Below, one piece after another: positions 44,362-55,218 of a DNA stretch of 64,000 nt. Below the pieces are notes generated by a model. That model ran no database searches, was not told the DNA's origin, and was given only the letters and a program-made list of their open reading frames with translations. The stretch is from Pilatotrama ljubarskyi (taxonomy: Eukaryota > Basidiomycota > Agaricomycetes > Polyporales > Polyporaceae). The stretch's first letter is position 1. Every line of letters begins with the position of its first letter. The DNA is taken from the NCBI GenBank assembly GCA_022385805.1, contig MU277735.1, forward strand, positions 111,173-175,172, written 5' to 3'. The position numbers and the translations under genes were made by a program.

Positions 44362-46596
44362 ATGGACCGTCAAGGGCGCGGTCCGCCACAACGGCACAGC
44401 TCGCTCCCTGTCAGCCTCCACCGGCTCCTGGTCTCGGGTCCGCCTCAGCCTCCACAAAGCCCCAATGCAGACGATACGACAACCCTAGCCCTCGCGCCGC
44501 AGACGGGAGTCGAGGGCGGGCGGGTCTCGCCCGGAGGCATCGTTACTTCCGCTTCCGTTCAGCCCGCTCCGGGCGCGGAACAACAGCTCCCCTCACTTGT
44601 TTTGACAGAGGCGGCGTTCCAAGGTGTCCCAGGAGTCCAACCCGCGGGTGCACGGCAACAAACGCGGTCTCCAGCATCGGGTAACGTCGGCCAGGAGACT
44701 GGACCAGCCGCCGTCCCTACTTTGCCTGCTCTCCCGCTACCTCCGCCACCGCCACAGCACGTCCTACGCACAGATCCCGCCCTCTACGCCTCATCGTCGT
44801 CCTTACCATCCACCTACACAGCCGCCCGTTCCGGGCCTCACCTTCGTCCTATCTCCTGGAGCTCAGGGAGCGCTGTCAGCGCGCCGCCGACAGCTGCCAG
44901 ACTTGGCAGCCCGGATAGGAGCGCCCCTCCGCTGGCTCGGACGCTCCCGCAGCCGCGTCCGATTGCTGGGCCGCCTCACATCCCTGTCTCTCCCCCCTCA
45001 CCTCCTGTTGCTGGCCCGTCTCGGCTGCCGGAGGAGCCTGCGCCAACGCGCGGACGAAAGCGCAAGACGGCAGCGAAGAAAGCGCAGCCTGCGCTGCTTT
45101 CAGCGGAGACATCCTCGGCCTCAAGGAGCACCTCCCGCACTCGTCGACGGCGGGATGCCAGCGGCGCTGAGCTGGGTGAGTCGACTCAATTCATCAGAAC
45201 AGGACGCGTGGATACGAGCCGAACAGACTTTGGCAGGAGCGCCGGAGCGCCGGCTGCAGTCCCTCCTCCCGCAGGAGGTGAGGCGAGCCAACGGACCGCT
45301 CGCCCCAGCGCGAGCACACGCCGAGCGGAAGCAGGCCCTTCTGCGAGACGAATATCCGAGAGCGGGCGGGGAAGCCCTGCGTCATCGACAACGGAAAATT
45401 ATCCTGTCGCGGTGGGAGCAACGGCCTACTCTGTCACCACGCTGTCGCCGCTGCGAGCGACGATCCTGCCGCCCGTGCTCGAGCCGGATCCCCCGCCAGA
45501 GGGCCCCACGGTCGAGTCCGTGCCTCCCGGGATGTCTGCCGCTGGCGCTGGGCCGTCGACGAGCCGCGGTGGGGTGGGAGAGCGGGCGGCGGAGGTGAAG
45601 CGTAGCGAGTCGGACACAGAGGAGGCGGAGGCAGAGGGGAGGGGGAAGCGGCGGCGGCGGGGACGGAGCTCGCGGCAAGAGAGCAGCACGACGTCGAGCA
45701 GCTCGGAGCACGCGCAGGCGCCAAAGTCGAAGAAGACGCTGATTGCATGTCACTTCTGCCGAGGTAAGCACCTTCCCCGCTCGTCCCGGCCGACCGCCGT
45801 CTAGGCCGTCTTGTGGGAGATCCAGTACAGACCCAGTCCAGAGGCTGACGTCTGTTCCCCCTCCTCCTCCGGCACGACAGCCCGGAAGCTGCGCTGCGAC
45901 GGACAGAAGCCGTCCTGTGCGAACTGCAGGAAGCGCAGCCACCCCTGCACCTACGAGCAGCAGCCCAAGCGTCGCGGGCCCGGCAAGACGCCCAGGGGAT
46001 CAAGCAGCAGGAGGCGCACAAGGTCATCCGCGGCGGGCAGCTCGGCGGCGGATCCAACGCGGACGGCGGAGGCGAGTGGAAGTGGGGCTGGCACTGGTCC
46101 ATCCGCGGCGGGCGCCCCGCCGGCGCCGGAAGCCGCGGGAGCGTTCAACGCGGAAGCAGCAGCTGCGAGACGGGCGGCGGCAGAGGCAGCCCTCGCAGCC
46201 GCCACCGCAGCCCGCGCCCAGCAGCAGCAACGTTACCCTGAGCCGCCAGCGAGCCCGCCGTCCATCGCGTTCGAGCCGCAGCTGACGGGACCCGTCCCCA
46301 CCTACCCCGGATTCGCATACCGCCCTCCGTCCGCGTCGTCGTCGTCATTCAGCGCCACGGGCCAGCTTCCGCCCTTCCACTTCTATAGCGTGGGACGGGG
46401 CATGAACCGGAGCGTCGCATCCGACAGCGTGCGGTCCTCGAACACGTCAAACGTCTCGTCCGCCCCCTCTGTCCCCGACTCTGAAGAGGGCGTGGAGGGC
46501 AGCGTGGTGGACGAATTCATGGACTACACGGAACTGGAAGAGTTCTATCTGCAGCCACAGCCTGGGCCAGGGCCAGGAGAAGAGGGTTCGCAATAG
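44362..46596 (+). CDS. Zn2Cys6 binuclear-cluster transcription factor
   Basis: Fungal-type DNA-binding regulator, 705 residues; targets unknown. Exons 44362-45763 and 45881-46596. The cluster has cysteines at 463, 466, 473, 480, 483 and 490 (ACHFCRARKLRCDGQ then PSCANCRKRSHPC), the canonical Cx2Cx6Cx6Cx2Cx6C spacing, and lies in the second half of the protein after 460 residues rich in Pro, Ser, Ala and Arg. The intron cuts the cluster after CHFCR in phase 1, exactly as in both clusters of the next gene. Ala- and Ser-rich sequence and an acidic C-terminus (DEFMDYTELEEF), a possible activation region, follow. The ATG at 44362 is the first in frame. Confidence 0.85.
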
Positions 46597-47384: not shown

Positions 47385-50300
47385 ATGGATCCCCTCGACC
47401 ATCGCCATCGCCGCGCCGAGGTCGACCATGACCGCCGCCCGCGCGACCTCCACACCCACCACCACCAGTTCGAGAACGCGGACCCCAGTGGCAAGTCCCC
47501 CCACACCCGCTGCCCGAGCCGCTCGCGCGCAGAGAGGATGCCCGACGGAGACGCCCCCGCCCCCGGCTACACTCTCATGGTCGCTGGCCGCCGCACAGGC
47601 AAGACCTCCTTTCTGAGGCTCCTCCTTGACACCTCCAACGTCGCCTCCTCCGTCACGCGCGACCAGCTCGCGTCCGTCGCAAAGTTCGTCCAGGGCTCCA
47701 GCGGACACACCTCGCAAGTTCGGACCGTCTCCGTCGACATTGACCTGGCGCCTGACGAGGTCGACGAGGAGCTCCCCCTAACGCTTACGCTCATCGACAC
47801 GCCCTCTCTCGACTTTGACGACAAGCACGCGTCCGACCGCGCACTCCAGGAGATCCTTCGACACGTCGAGTCGCGTCTGGGGCAGAGCTTGGACGACGTG
47901 AGTGTGCTAGCCAATTAGACGCCCATGAGCGCTAACCGTCGCGTCCCGTGCGTCTCTCAGGAACGCAAGGCCCTCAGCGGCGACCACCATGTACATCTGT
48001 GCGTCCCCTTTCTCCTGCTCCTTGTTCGCGTGGGGCTAATCGACGTCTTTGCACAGTTGCGTTTACTTCCTCGACCCAAACTACATAGTACCACCCTCCG
48101 TACCCGCACCACCCGCGCCGCCTGTACCTCGAGCACGTACCAACAGTCTTTCTACTCATGAGTCCGAACCTGTCATCCTTGATCCCCCGGTCACCAGCAA
48201 CCCGGTGCTGTGCCGCCCCATCCTCCCCTCCTGTGACATCACCGCCATCCGCCGACTCTCTGCGCGCGTCAACGTGCTCCCAGTAGTAGCCTGCGCAGAC
48301 ACGCTGACGACCGAGCGGCTGACGGCGGTGAAGATGGCCATCCGCAGAGACCTCGCCGAGGCGGGCATCGGCTTCGGCATCTTTGACCTCGACATCCCGC
48401 TGTACGCGCAGCTCGAGTCCAAAGTCGTGAAGCACAAGGCCGAGACCGGCGGCTACATGAAGCTCAACCACCACCTCAACGGCAACGGCAACAACTCTAG
48501 CACCTCGCCGCCCTCGACCCCGATCACGCCCACGTTGCTGAGGCTGCCGTTCTCGCTGATCTCCCCAGACATTTACTCGCACAGCGACGGCGTCGCGCGC
48601 GCGCCGCTGTCGCGCTCCGAGCTGATGCACCAGTACTCGCCATCCAAGCGCATGGCACCGAAGACGCAGTGTACGCCGAAGATCGTCCCCGGCAAGTTCG
48701 TGCGGACTTATAGATGGGGGGCGCTCGACGTCATGGATGCGAGCCACTGCGAATTCCTGCATCTGCGCGGTGCCATTTTCCATCACATGGAGGTATGCAG
48801 CCCACTCCTCTTATCTCCCTCCTGCAGCTCTCCATTCCCCGCGTGCGTCATACGCTGACTTCATATTGCCTCCGATGGTGACGGTGTCCGGACAGACCCT
48901 GCAAAAGTACACGCGCGAGTACCTGTTCGAGAAGTTCAAGACGGAGATGCAGCCGCCCCCGCCGCCGGTCCCGGTGCGATCTTCCCAGCCGGGGGCGGCA
49001 GCAGTTGCGCGTCTTCCGCCAATGCGGGGGTCCCGGCCTATCCTCGCGATAGACACCGCGCCTTCTCATGCGACCGCCAACGGCCAGGCAACTCTGTCCG
49101 TGCCCCGCTCGGCGGTGCCGCTGAATGGTGAGCCGCTGTCTGCCCCGACCATGCATGTGCAGGACCTTTCGCCGAAGACCGCGACCTCTGCAAGTCAGTC
49201 ACCTCCCCTCCTGCTCCTCCTCTCCCCCTTGCGCGTTCGACGTATTTGCGACGATGGCGTTGTCGTTGGTGTTCGCGTGGTTGCTGTCGTTGCTCGATAT
49301 CCCGTCGGACCGCATGCTCACGCCTCTCACAGGATCCCAGCGCCAGCGGGCGAAAAAGATAACGGTCGCGTGCAATTTCTGCAGATGTAAGTTCCCTCCC
49401 CCGTTCCTGCGTCCTATTCAGCCCCAAGTTGCCGCGTTCTCACGGGCTCTTCTTCTCGCTCTTCTTCCTTCGGACGCGCAGCGCGGAAGCTCAAGTGTGA
49501 CGGCGGCAGACCGGCATGCGGGCAGTGCTACAAACGTTCGAACCCGTGCGATTACACAGCGAGCAACAAGCGACGGCCGTCGAGCGCCAGCACCAACGCG
49601 GGCAGCAAGCAGCACTCGCACCTGCAGCAGCACCGGAAGGCGTACGGCAGCGACAGCGAGGGTGACAGCTTCGAAGACGCCTCGGGGGATCCCGATCACA
49701 CCACCACCTCATCGCACCAGTCACACCCGCACCCGCACTCGCACTCGCATCCGCCCTCGCAGCAGTCACAATCACAGTCGCGGTCCCCCGAAGTGCGGTC
49801 GTCCGCGCCGCACTCCCGGAGAAGCTCCAACGTGAGCATGCTTCTGACGGACCCACTCCCGCTTCCCCCGCTCAGCGCAGCCGTCGACCCGCGCGAGCGC
49901 GAAGCAGACGCCTCCGCCGTCCTACCCCCGATCACCACCGGCCTCGGTGTGCCCGCAGCCAACGGCAGCACGGCGGCCGCCAACTCTGCTGCTGCGTCTC
50001 GCCGCCGCCAGTCGATGAACACGGAGCTCCCGCCCATCGCGACGCTCTCGGCGCCCTCCGGGGGCGGGCAGCAGGAGGACGTGACGTCGTTCAAGGACAC
50101 GGACCGGGACCGGGATGCGTCTGCGGGGTCGCACAAGCGCGCGCCCTCGGTCGTGTCAGGGCGCGGCGGGAGAGGGGGCGGCGGATCAAAGATCGTCGCC
50201 TGCAACTTTTGTCGAGGTACGTCGGCGCAGCTGGGATCACGAACAGCGGCAGGATCATGTACTGACTGATCGTCCCCCTTTCAGCGCGCAAGACGAAATG

Positions 50301-50631
50301 CGACGGGGAGCATCCCACGTGCGGGAGCTGCTCGCGCCGATCTCTGCGGTGCAACTACGTCAACGACCCGCCGGCCAAGGCGCGCTCGAAGAGCAGCGCG
50401 GCTACGACGCCCCCGGACGCGTCTGCGTCCGTGTCCTCGCGCTCGTCCCCGGCGTCGTCGCACGCGGCGGTGTCGCTGGGCATGACGAGTGCGTCGGAGC
50501 AGCAGCAGTCGGCGGGCGTGCGCTCGATCAGCGAGCTCGATCCGGATTTGGCCCAGCAGCAGCCGGCGAAGAAAATGCGCCTCGCGGCGGAGCTGAGCAC
50601 ACCGTCCATCGCGGTGCTCAGCGCGCCATAG
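47385..50631 (+). CDS. Septin-like GTPase domain fused to two Zn2Cys6 clusters (predicted)
   Basis: Predicted 906 residues. Exons 47385-47897, 47961-47998, 48057-48792, 48896-49193, 49333-49386, 49482-50216, 50285-50631, all in phase. Residues 65-445 are septin-like: P-loop GRRTGKTS (68-75), DTPSLDF where septins have DTPGLD, VVACAD where they have AKAD, and a septin unique element RWGALDVMDASHCEF. Two Zn2Cys6 clusters follow, cysteines 542, 545, 552, 559, 562, 569 and 787, 790, 797, 804, 807, 814, both canonical. The G3 glycine and G4 lysine are lost, so GTP hydrolysis is doubtful. Alternative: two genes. Retaining intron 4 ends the septin part at 49390, and an ATG at 49314 is in frame with the first cluster. 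Confidence 0.6.
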
Positions 50632-51533: not shown

Positions 51534-53702
51534 ATGTTCTCCTTCCGCCGCAAGCCCCAGAAGAGGGCCGCAGAGACCCCCTTCATCCGCACCTCCCCCT
51601 CCCTCCCCGAGCTCTCCGCCCAGGGCATCCCCTGGCCGAGCAACCTCGTCGACCTCTCCCAACTTCCCCAGGATGAGCCCCCGCCCCCGAGAGGCGCGGC
51701 CAAGACGTCGTTCACCACCGACTCTAAAGGACCCGTCCCGTTCCACAAGCCGTGGTCCTCCCCGGGCAAGGCGGTGGATAGCCCGGGCCCGGGGGCCATC
51801 TCTTCCCTGTACATGTCTCATCCCCCGTCCGCGTTCGAGACGCGCAAGCAGTCGCTCCAGGGCCGGCCGCGTCCTAGCCAGAGGCGCGCCCGGAATCCGA
51901 CGACGTTCAATCTCATGGTGCGTCCCTTTCATACCTAGACGTACGAAGTATGGGGGTTCACCGTGTCTCAGGTTGCTGGTGCGCAAGGCACAGGCAAGAC
52001 GTCGCTCCTCCGCCTCTTGCTAGAGACGGCAGACATCTCGCCCACTGCCACCGCCGACCAGAAGGCCGCCATGGAGCGCTTCCTCCGCGGCACCGCCAAG
52101 CGCACGGACGCCATCCAGACCGCGTGCGTCGAGATCTGCGAGAGCAAGTACGACCGGCTCCTCTTCTCCGTCATCGACACGCCCGGGCTCGACTTCCAGG
52201 AGGGCCACGAGCTCAAGCTCGAGCGCCAGGTGACGGCGATCGTCAAGTACCTCGACGCGCAGTTCGCGGACACGCTCAACGAGGAGAGCAAGGTCGTCCG
52301 CCAGAGCAAGGGCGACCAGCACATCCACCTCTGCATCTACATGATCGACCCCGCCTCCGTCACCACCCAGTCCGCCCGGCGCACCCACTCCTCCTTCCCC
52401 TCCCACGTCCGCTCCGAGACGACCGTCTCGTACAAGCCCCAAGAATCCCCTGCGCCCGACTCCGATTCGGACTCGGACGATGACTCGGACGACGACTCGA
52501 GCGGTACACATGGTCTGACGATGTCCCCCGTGGACATCCGAGTCATCCGCCGCCTCTCCGCGCGCGCGAACGTGCTGCCCGTGATCGCGAAAGCGGACTC
52601 GCTCACGGACGGGAAACTCGCGGCGATCAAACGCGTCGTCCGCCGCGACCTTCTCGCCGCGAACCTCGACTTTGGCGTCTTCGGGCCTGTGCTCGCGGGC
52701 GAGGTGCGCGCGAAGAGCCCCGCCGATGCCGGCGCCGGAAACTACGCCAACGGCGCTCCCAACGGTACCGCGAACGGAAACGGCGATGCTGCCGCCAATG
52801 GCGACGGCAACGCGAACGGCAACGGCAACGCGAACGGCAACGGCCATGCCGCGGACCACAACGACGACGAGGGCGACGAGCCCGCCGAGCGGCCTTCGCG
52901 CCCGGTGATCAAGCTACGCCCCACGCGGCTCGCGCGGACGCGCTCCTCGCGCTCGCGCTCGCGGCTCGACCTCACCGAGGCCGCGGAGGAGCCCGCGCTC
53001 GAGCTCAACGACACGGAGAGCGTCGCGAGCGTGCGCTTCTCCGCGCACATCGTCGCGAAGACGGACCTGAGCGCGCACCTCCCATTCGCGGTCATCACGC
53101 CCGAGCACGTGCATCGCAGGAAGGGGCTGAGGAGCGCCGCGAGCGCGGTCGCGTCGCCGTCGGGGGCGAGCGCGAACGGACACTCGCAGATCAACGGCAG
53201 CGGGCCCGGGGAGGAGCGGGCGTCGATGGTGTCGCCGTCGGAGGACGGGCACGCGCCGAGCGTAGCGCATTCGACGATGACGTCGCCCGTGAGCCCGTCC
53301 ACGCCGGCGTCGGTGCGCAACTTTGCGTACCTGTCGGGCCCGCCCGCGGATCTGCGCGGCGTGTTCGTGCGCAAGTTCAGGTGGGGCACCGTGGACGTGC
53401 TCAACCCGGAGCACTGCGACTTTGCCGCCCTGCGCACGGCGGTTCTCTCTACGCATATGAAGGTGAGAGCGTCACGGTATGCAGCGAAGGCTGAGAAGCT
53501 GAACGCGACCGTCTTGTAGATGTTGAAAATACGGACGAAGGAGGTGCTGTACGAGAAGTACAGGACCGAGAAGCTGCTCGCCCGGCGCGCGACGCGGAAT
53601 ATCAGCGAGGACGAAACTCGCCGATTGTTGGAAGGTCCGTGTCCCCTCTTCTCTCCCCGGCTTCGCTTCCCGACTGAATGCCTCGCAGATCTGGGCCTCT
53701 GA
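51534..53702 (+). CDS. Divergent septin-family GTPase
   Basis: GTP-binding cytoskeletal-type protein, 667 residues. Exons 51534-51917, 51972-53462, 53520-53634, 53689-53702. G1 is GAQGTGKT (131-138), G3 DTPGLD (197-202), G4 AKAD (334-337), all intact; the septin unique element is visible as FRWGTVDVLNPEHCDFAALR near the end of exon 2. Two features are unlike classic septins: an acidic Ser/Asp insertion before G4 (about 285-308) and a long insertion of some 240 residues after it, containing Asn/Gly repeats and Ser/Arg stretches. There is no long C-terminal coiled coil; the chain ends about 40 residues past the last domain motif. It sits directly downstream of the septin-like/zinc-cluster gene and appears to be its paralogue. 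Confidence 0.85.
52748..52846 (+). repeat. In-frame Asn/Gly-coding hexamer repeat
   Basis: Degenerate repeats of AACGGC and CGAACGGC within the septin gene encode runs such as NGNANGNGNANGNGH. Likely a slippage-prone linker. Confidence 0.7.
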
Positions 53703-54050: not shown

Positions 54051-55218
54051 CTATTGCTTCTTCTGCTTCGATGCTAGCGCGTCGATCTCCTCTTTGGACA
54101 TCCCATCTAGCCGCACTAGCAGGTAATCCACCTAGACCATCATCAGCATCGTACACCTTCGCTGGAAACGAGCGAATATACCTCGACCTCCTTCGTCAGA
54201 GGGATGATGTAATGCTCGTAGAGCTCGACGACGCCGTCCACGTCGATCTTCCGCAGCGCGGAATCGTCCACGGGCTCGCCGTCGGGCGTGAAGTTGAGCG
54301 CGTAGAGGTTCGCCTTCTTGCGCAGCCGCTGCAGGAGCTTCTTCTCCACCTCGGGCTTCGTGATCAGCGCGGCGAGCGCGTCGCGATTCCGGGACTGGAT
54401 GTGCGGGATGAACGCTGCGGGGTCGTCCCTGAACTTGCTCTCCGACACGAACTTCCCTGCGCGGAGACCCGGCGTCAGCACACTTCCAGAGCTTCGCCGA
54501 TCCCCACCGACGTCGATGCACGACTGGAGGGAGCGTACCGTAATGCACGCGCTTGGAGATGGCCTGGAGGACCTCGAGGTCGACGAACGCGGCGCTGCCG
54601 TAGTTGCCGTCGTCCTCGAACTCGGCGTCGCCGGTGATGCCGCTGGCGCGCTTGAGCGCGGAGAGGGCGAGCGTCGCCTGGCGGGTGATGCGCGGGACGA
54701 TGGACTGCACGTAGAAGGAGAGGATGGACGCGTTCATGTTGATCTTGTTCGGGTAGAGGATCGGCGGGTGCGGGTGCGGCTTGAGGATCGGCGGCGGCAG
54801 CTCCGCGGGGTCGGTGAACGGGTACTCGTCCGGGCTGCGTGGCGGGAGGGCGTGGTGAGCGTGCGGAGCGCGGACTGCGCGCGGGGACGGCGGCGTGCGC
54901 ACCTGGTGTATCTCCTCGCCTTCGCTGTGGTCCCCGATCAGTATTCAGGCAAGCTCTGTAGGTTGTCCCGTGCTCACCGTGGAACGTCTCGGTCTCCTTC
55001 AGGAACCACTCTAGCCAGCTCCCGTGGAAGCCGATGTCTTTGAGCTCCTGGAACTCGCCGCGGCGGTACGCGCGCGGGTTGTGCGCGAACTGGGCGCGCT
55101 CGATCAGCGAGAAGATGATGGTGTCCTCGAGGCGGACGAGGATGGAGCGGATGCGGTCGAGCGAGAGCGGGTCGCCGCCGAGGGTCAGGTTCTGGATCGG
55201 TATCGGGACGCTCGCCAT
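54051..55218 (-). CDS. ARO7: Chorismate mutase
   Basis: Converts chorismate to prephenate for phenylalanine and tyrosine synthesis; all-helical AroQ fold of the eukaryotic, allosteric type; 304 residues. Exons 55218-54978, 54924-54903, 54834-54539, 54456-54182, 54131-54051. Motifs: [44 protein letters not shown], then ARRYTSPDEYPF, matching the yeast loop IRRFESPDETPF, then [30 protein letters not shown], and [19 protein letters not shown] at the end. Exon 2 is 22 nt and was placed by this match. The regulatory region looks complete, so feedback by aromatic amino acids is likely. Confidence 0.94.

Follow-up and report, generated by a model that had tools for sequence, protein, structure and literature searches.

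A Conserved Gene of Pilatotrama ljubarskyi and Other Agaricomycetes Predicted to Join a Septin-Like Domain to Two Zn2Cys6 Clusters

Introduction

Septins are usually studied as filament-forming scaffolds, and the zinc-cluster regulator Gal4 uses a coiled coil for dimerisation and recognises CGG sites in DNA. Here, we analyzed a gene from Pilatotrama ljubarskyi that is predicted to combine elements of both families, as it reads from a septin-like domain into a tandem pair of Zn2Cys6 DNA-binding clusters. The gene occupies positions 47385-50631 of a 64,000-nucleotide (nt) stretch of DNA (hereafter the window), which corresponds to C66:111173-175172 of the 33.1-Mb genome. Homologous sequences are cited by their P numbers.

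The closest described protein is PoZCP55 from Pleurotus ostreatus (PMC7295025, PeerJ 2020), which, according to the accessible part of that report, shows matches to the septin family PF00735 followed by two C-terminal zinc clusters, stands as a clade of its own in a tree of 66 zinc-cluster proteins, and is mentioned as a C-terminal zinc-cluster protein. The gene structures of the zinc-cluster set, which includes PoZCP55, were corrected by the authors with mapped RNA sequencing reads (PMC7295025). The report is a family survey, and its accessible text does not analyze the spread, the G motifs, or the function of the fusion. It was the sole description that we found; no functional study of the fusion was found in open-access PMC, and the accessible parts of PMC4035324, PMC11878562, and PMC4624876 do not mention it. 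The original prediction had held that no described protein joins a septin fold to fungal zinc clusters. This has to be narrowed, since the domain order is already known from one species and one survey sentence in the accessible text of PMC7295025, whereas the conservation across Agaricomycetes, the evidence from the junction, the pseudoGTPase signature, and the adjacent paralogue are new here. Septin surveys themselves can miss such a pairing of septin-like and DNA-binding parts, although it is kept across the sampled Agaricomycetes: in the survey of PMC6323724, as far as its accessible text goes, the alternative criterion for proteins with G boxes only dropped those with conflicting domains, e.g., DNA_binding.

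Gene Structure and Domain Organization

The gene presents an uninterrupted frame of 906 amino acids (aa) in seven exons, from the ATG at 47385 to a stop codon ending at 50631. Its six introns (47898-47960, 47999-48056, 48793-48895, 49194-49332, 49387-49481, and 50217-50284; 63, 58, 103, 139, 95, and 68 nt, respectively) are all of the GT...CAG type with matching phases, so that the seven phase-matched exons proposed beforehand were recovered completely. The GC content at third codon positions is 0.67-0.90 across all exons. The gene is composed as follows:

47385..47897, plus strand: exon 1, N-terminus, septin-like P-loop AGRRTGKT, G3 motif DTPSLDF
47961..47998, plus strand: exon 2, 38 nt
48057..48792, plus strand: exon 3, G4 motif ACAD, insertion, core of the septin unique element (R400/W404/H414)
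48896..49193, plus strand: exon 4, end of the septin unique element and conserved linker RPILAIDTAP
49194..49332, plus strand: intron 4 (junction intron), 139 nt, phase 1, without a stop in any frame
49333..49386, plus strand: exon 5, 54 nt, first half of Zn2Cys6 cluster 1, KKITVACNFCR
49482..50216, plus strand: exon 6, remainder of cluster 1, low-complexity spacer, first half of cluster 2
50285..50631, plus strand: exon 7, remainder of cluster 2, C-terminal tail, stop

Within this one protein, Pfam matches were obtained to Septin (PF00735; E value 1.1e-31, 110.5 bits at a cut-off of 26.2, three stretches) and to Zn_clus (PF00172; E value 5.3e-18, 65.3 bits at a cut-off of 21, two stretches), which bears out the predicted passage from a septin-like P-loop and septin unique element into two zinc clusters. 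The Pfam scan of the 906-aa protein returned no further family, hence no Fungal_trans, and an NCBIfam scan gave nothing useful. The pattern CX2CX6CX5-12CX2CX6-8C is found in two stretches, and the best-scoring solved structures for the zinc part are HAP1/CYP1 and GAL4. The CX2CX6CX6CX2CX6C spacing is shared with Gal4/Hap1-type regulators (PF00172), whereas the position of a tandem pair behind a septin-like domain is particular to the fusion.

The public record of the same gene (P0001, hypothetical protein BV20DRAFT_1038796) begins at M52 (47538). Judging from the homologues that hold the motif following the P-loop, we prefer the start at 47385, because at least 40 residues precede this motif in 57 of 106 of them and 39 of the 106 have an M..DxR-like beginning, the remainder beginning later.

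Conservation of the Fusion in Agaricomycetes

Three protein searches were carried out, each scoring a capped set of candidates, with 120 matches listed in each. The search with the whole protein led to the identification of 192 homologues, and PF00735 and PF00172 are both present in 120/120 among the matches listed, which answers the call of the original prediction to look for the same domain order in related proteomes. From their species names, the homologues belong to Polyporales, Agaricales, Boletales, Russulales, and other orders; they include P0095 from Coprinopsis cinerea and P0063 from Pleurotus pulmonarius. Because the latter is an orthologue of the window gene, PoZCP55 is, judged from its description, very probably one as well.

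An alignment of 115 rows was analyzed, in which the window model and P0001 count as two rows and from which P0033, P0036, P0043, P0057, P0060, and P0115 were left out as truncated or merged with neighbours. Conserved in the alignment are the septin motifs, the linker RPILAID with close variants, QRxKKITVACNFCR in front of cluster 1, and twelve cysteines, whereby the cluster cysteines are kept in 113-115 of the 115 rows and residues occur on both sides of the junction in 114. A strict cluster pattern was matched by two clusters in 109 of the 120 homologues listed, by one cluster in nine, and by three clusters in two. A chance joining by gene finders was considered and ruled out, because 120/120 listed homologues are fused and further open reading frames (ORFs) show the same architecture. 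On these comparisons we regard it as almost certain that the locus is one gene encoding one protein with a septin-like domain, a conserved linker, and two Zn2Cys6 clusters.

Evidence From the Junction and From Divergent Annotations

The main competing model consists of two overlapping genes, i.e., a septin-like gene that retains intron 4 and terminates at 49390, and a zinc regulator that starts from the ATG at 49314. Both signals exist as predicted: if intron 4 is retained, the frame stays open up to 49390 and would yield a septin-only product, and cluster 1 lies in frame with the ATG at 49314. The intron positions were compared with a set of 224 ORFs (rows P0126-P0358, 233 in number, minus 13 with ncbi source, plus four rows from the whole-protein search). 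None of the six intron positions is spanned in 134 of these ORFs, all six are spanned in four, and introns 3-6 in three. A script counted 21/224 ORFs that span introns 4-6, but this number includes cross-matches between the two clusters, and a single alignment spans introns 4-6 only in P0259 and P0273. P0099 and P0078 encode the whole fusion, with only 129 and 259 nt of their contigs being non-coding. Because this is too little for six introns of usual size plus the ends, we infer that these contigs represent spliced transcripts, which would suggest full-length exon 1-7 transcripts and speak against two genes; alternatively, intron loss may have occurred in those species.

According to unspliced read-through ORFs, intron 4 has a similar position in other contigs. 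The tail of P0225 ends like the one in the window, but past the first residues the read-through tails diverge between species, which is not in favor of a separate septin-like gene ending there. In P0250 and P0257 (contigs up to 21,509 and 20,331 nt) the insert at the junction amounts by eye to about 20 codons, i.e., an intron of about 60 nt, and there is therefore no room for a terminator plus a promoter. From the linker motif to ARKLKCDG, counting introns 4 and 5, P0250 has 111 residues and P0257 has 110, whereas in 104 fused proteins the median is 73 and the range a wide 49-128.

In two further searches, most fused forms were excluded by protein length. Rows from named species with a septin match alone turned out to be split, truncated, or isoform models, and these, together with some more general points, weigh against a single fused gene. 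Split annotations occur in the pairs P0122/P0243, P0123/P0247, and P0142/P0318, the members of the last pair lying on equally long contigs; P0131, P0161, and P0230 stop within the septin part; and P0124, which besides P0121-P0123 is the sole named model to have the septin unique element complete but lack a zinc part, ends at residue 471 after that element with an unrelated tail. P0121 from Taiwanofungus camphoratus is a septin-only isoform of 588 aa that runs into the junction intron. Furthermore, the transcript status of P0078 and P0099 is deduced from their contigs, and an erroneous fusion of Aspergillus nidulans AspE with its neighbour has been recorded in the accessible text of PMC11238149. 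The splits themselves, however, also count against two genes. In Termitomyces (C0992_012619/012618) and Tricholoma (H0H92_006524/006525) the two models carry neighbouring tags and the zinc half starts after cluster 1, so that cluster 1 is lost, while the Grifola split falls within the septin domain, with P0142 covering residues 56-301 and the zinc model P0318 starting from residue 428. Given also the fusion of all homologues listed, the two-gene model fails on the short junction introns and on these splits, and we consider it highly improbable. The fusion reading of the original prediction thus stands, based on the shared frame, the listed homologues, and the transcript-like ORFs that cross the junction.

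It might also be that the locus mainly produces the fused protein and that regulated retention of intron 4 adds a septin-only isoform that works with cytoplasmic septins. In favor of such a dual output, P0121, which ends in intron 4, and the fused P0027 are annotated under the same Taiwanofungus locus, AcW2_007443, and intron 4 of the window is free of stops. However, the read-through tails are not conserved, and P0121 is a single annotated isoform that differs at intron 3, too; we therefore hold this possibility to be rather unlikely.

Motifs and Likely Nucleotide State of the Septin-Like Domain

The septin-like part shares the predicted fold, the septin unique element, and the P-loop with septins of PF00735, including the four canonical septins of this genome, and lies above the Pfam cut-off of that family. 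The P-loop (GxxxxGK[ST]) is kept, with the lysine and the T/S each in 115/115 rows and the preceding glycine in 113/115. Residues named in the accessible text of PMC6323724 as conserved in every septin group, matched by position in our alignment, are also retained (D265 in 115/115, R400 in 114/115, W404 in 115/115, and H414 in 106/115). In contrast to canonical septins, the fusion has DTPS instead of DTPG, ACAD or ARAD instead of AKAD, and zinc clusters behind the domain. The G3 glycine (DxxG) is replaced by serine in 110/115 rows and by alanine in 5/115, and the G4 lysine is present in only 4/115, the window protein having ACAD. Since neither motif has its canonical form, the window protein is, as judged by its motifs, not a canonical GTP-hydrolysing septin. 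Because the G3 glycine is lost and the G4 lysine mostly lost while the P-loop is kept, the septin-like half is a probable pseudoGTPase. The former description as a GTPase fold thus holds for the septin fold and is doubtful for the GTPase. Non-conservative changes of the pocket motifs are shared with the septin pseudoGTPases of PMC10731463, but in the accessible text of that paper those are ordinary septin subunits, and the word "zinc" does not occur.

The degenerate G3 and G4 motifs could also be taken to mean that the domain is a decaying, functionless remnant. The alignment, however, contains long invariant stretches, and mean column identity is 69% over nine septin parts compared to 53% over six zinc parts, the latter value including the variable spacer. 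There is thus hardly any likelihood that the domain is without function.

Proposed Function

The explanation that we prefer as a whole, at slightly better than even chances, is that of a fused nuclear regulator in which the septin-like domain serves as a dimerisation or assembly module and which originated by duplication. Most likely, the protein would regulate transcription in the nucleus by sequence-specific DNA binding. Its septin-like domain would bind nucleotide, probably with little or no hydrolysis, and could stand in for the coiled coil of Gal4-type factors and perhaps provide a nucleotide-locked state. Up to four clusters per dimer might then recognise composite CGG-type sites. Some points limit this explanation: the accessible text of PMC7295025 does not state the location or the targets of PoZCP55; two short basic runs were found, short basic runs being the only nuclear signals sought; and in the structure prediction (alignment of 60 of the 120 listed homologues) the predicted local distance difference test score (pLDDT) is below 50 over most of the chain beyond the septin core, so that a coiled coil is neither shown nor excluded.

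It could also be that the protein is a tethered latent factor, whose septin-like domain docks at septa, on septin filaments or membrane, and keeps the zinc clusters away from the nucleus until it is freed by a signal from the cell cycle or from morphogenesis. The septin unique element and the retained residues D265, R400, W404, and H414 would fit such docking, whereas the degenerate nucleotide-pocket motifs are located at the G interface and the domain shares only 21-24% identity with the four canonical septins of this genome, and we give this idea a low probability. A related and equally tentative idea, for which we see only a small chance, is a transcription factor that directly reads the septin cytoskeleton: at hyphal septa or clamp connections, the septin-like half would be incorporated into septin structures or dock on them, and the paired zinc clusters would reach promoters once this half is released or its G dimer changes. 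If true, a single protein would connect cell architecture with gene expression in mushrooms. The gene could tie cell architecture to gene control, and it offers a single-gene system, e.g., P0095 in Coprinopsis cinerea, in which to look for a physical link between septin biology and transcription during mushroom development.

Genomic Neighborhood and Origin

The fused gene is flanked in the window by two genes of related families:

44362..46596, plus strand: single-cluster Zn2Cys6 gene, 705-aa two-exon model, upstream of the fusion
51534..53702, plus strand: septin-like gene, 667-aa model with DTPG and AKAD, sister paralogue of the fused domain

The product of the downstream gene is unfused and has its own N- and C-termini. 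It shares 34% identity over 259 columns with the fused septin-like domain. In a tree of 19 rows, comprising canonical septins of this genome, fused septin-like domains, and downstream septin-like genes, the fused domains form a clade with support of 100/98 and the downstream genes a sister clade with 81/91, whereby both groups together are separated from the canonical septins with 100/100; the tool issued a long-branch warning for this tree.

The merged models P0036, P0043, and P0115 contain the fused protein and, behind it, a homologue of the downstream septin-like gene, and in P0057 and P0060 a zinc cluster lies ahead of the fusion, although its match to the upstream gene of the window is confined to the cluster. 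Because these models show the same neighbours, the neighborhood is, as far as the annotated models tell, at least partly shared by Polyporales and Agaricales, and the duplication is older than the split of the two orders. The septin half would go back to a duplicated septin-like gene, of which the second copy is still adjacent, and we infer that the tandem septin-like copy captured an adjacent zinc-cluster gene. The upstream Zn2Cys6 gene has an intron inside its cluster, as have both clusters of the fusion. The shared intron was considered to prove that the upstream gene and both clusters of the fusion stem from a single tandem duplication, but the argument was dropped because several other Zn2Cys6 genes here seem to be split near the same place.

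Beyond the septin-like gene, the first exon of the next gene (54982-55218, minus strand) showed no Pfam match, and PDB chorismate mutase matches were obtained for it, the best with an E value of 9.4e-12 (6hjw). At the other end of the window, a tRNA gene is located at 2353-2426 on the minus strand (Rfam RF00005, 59.1 bits).
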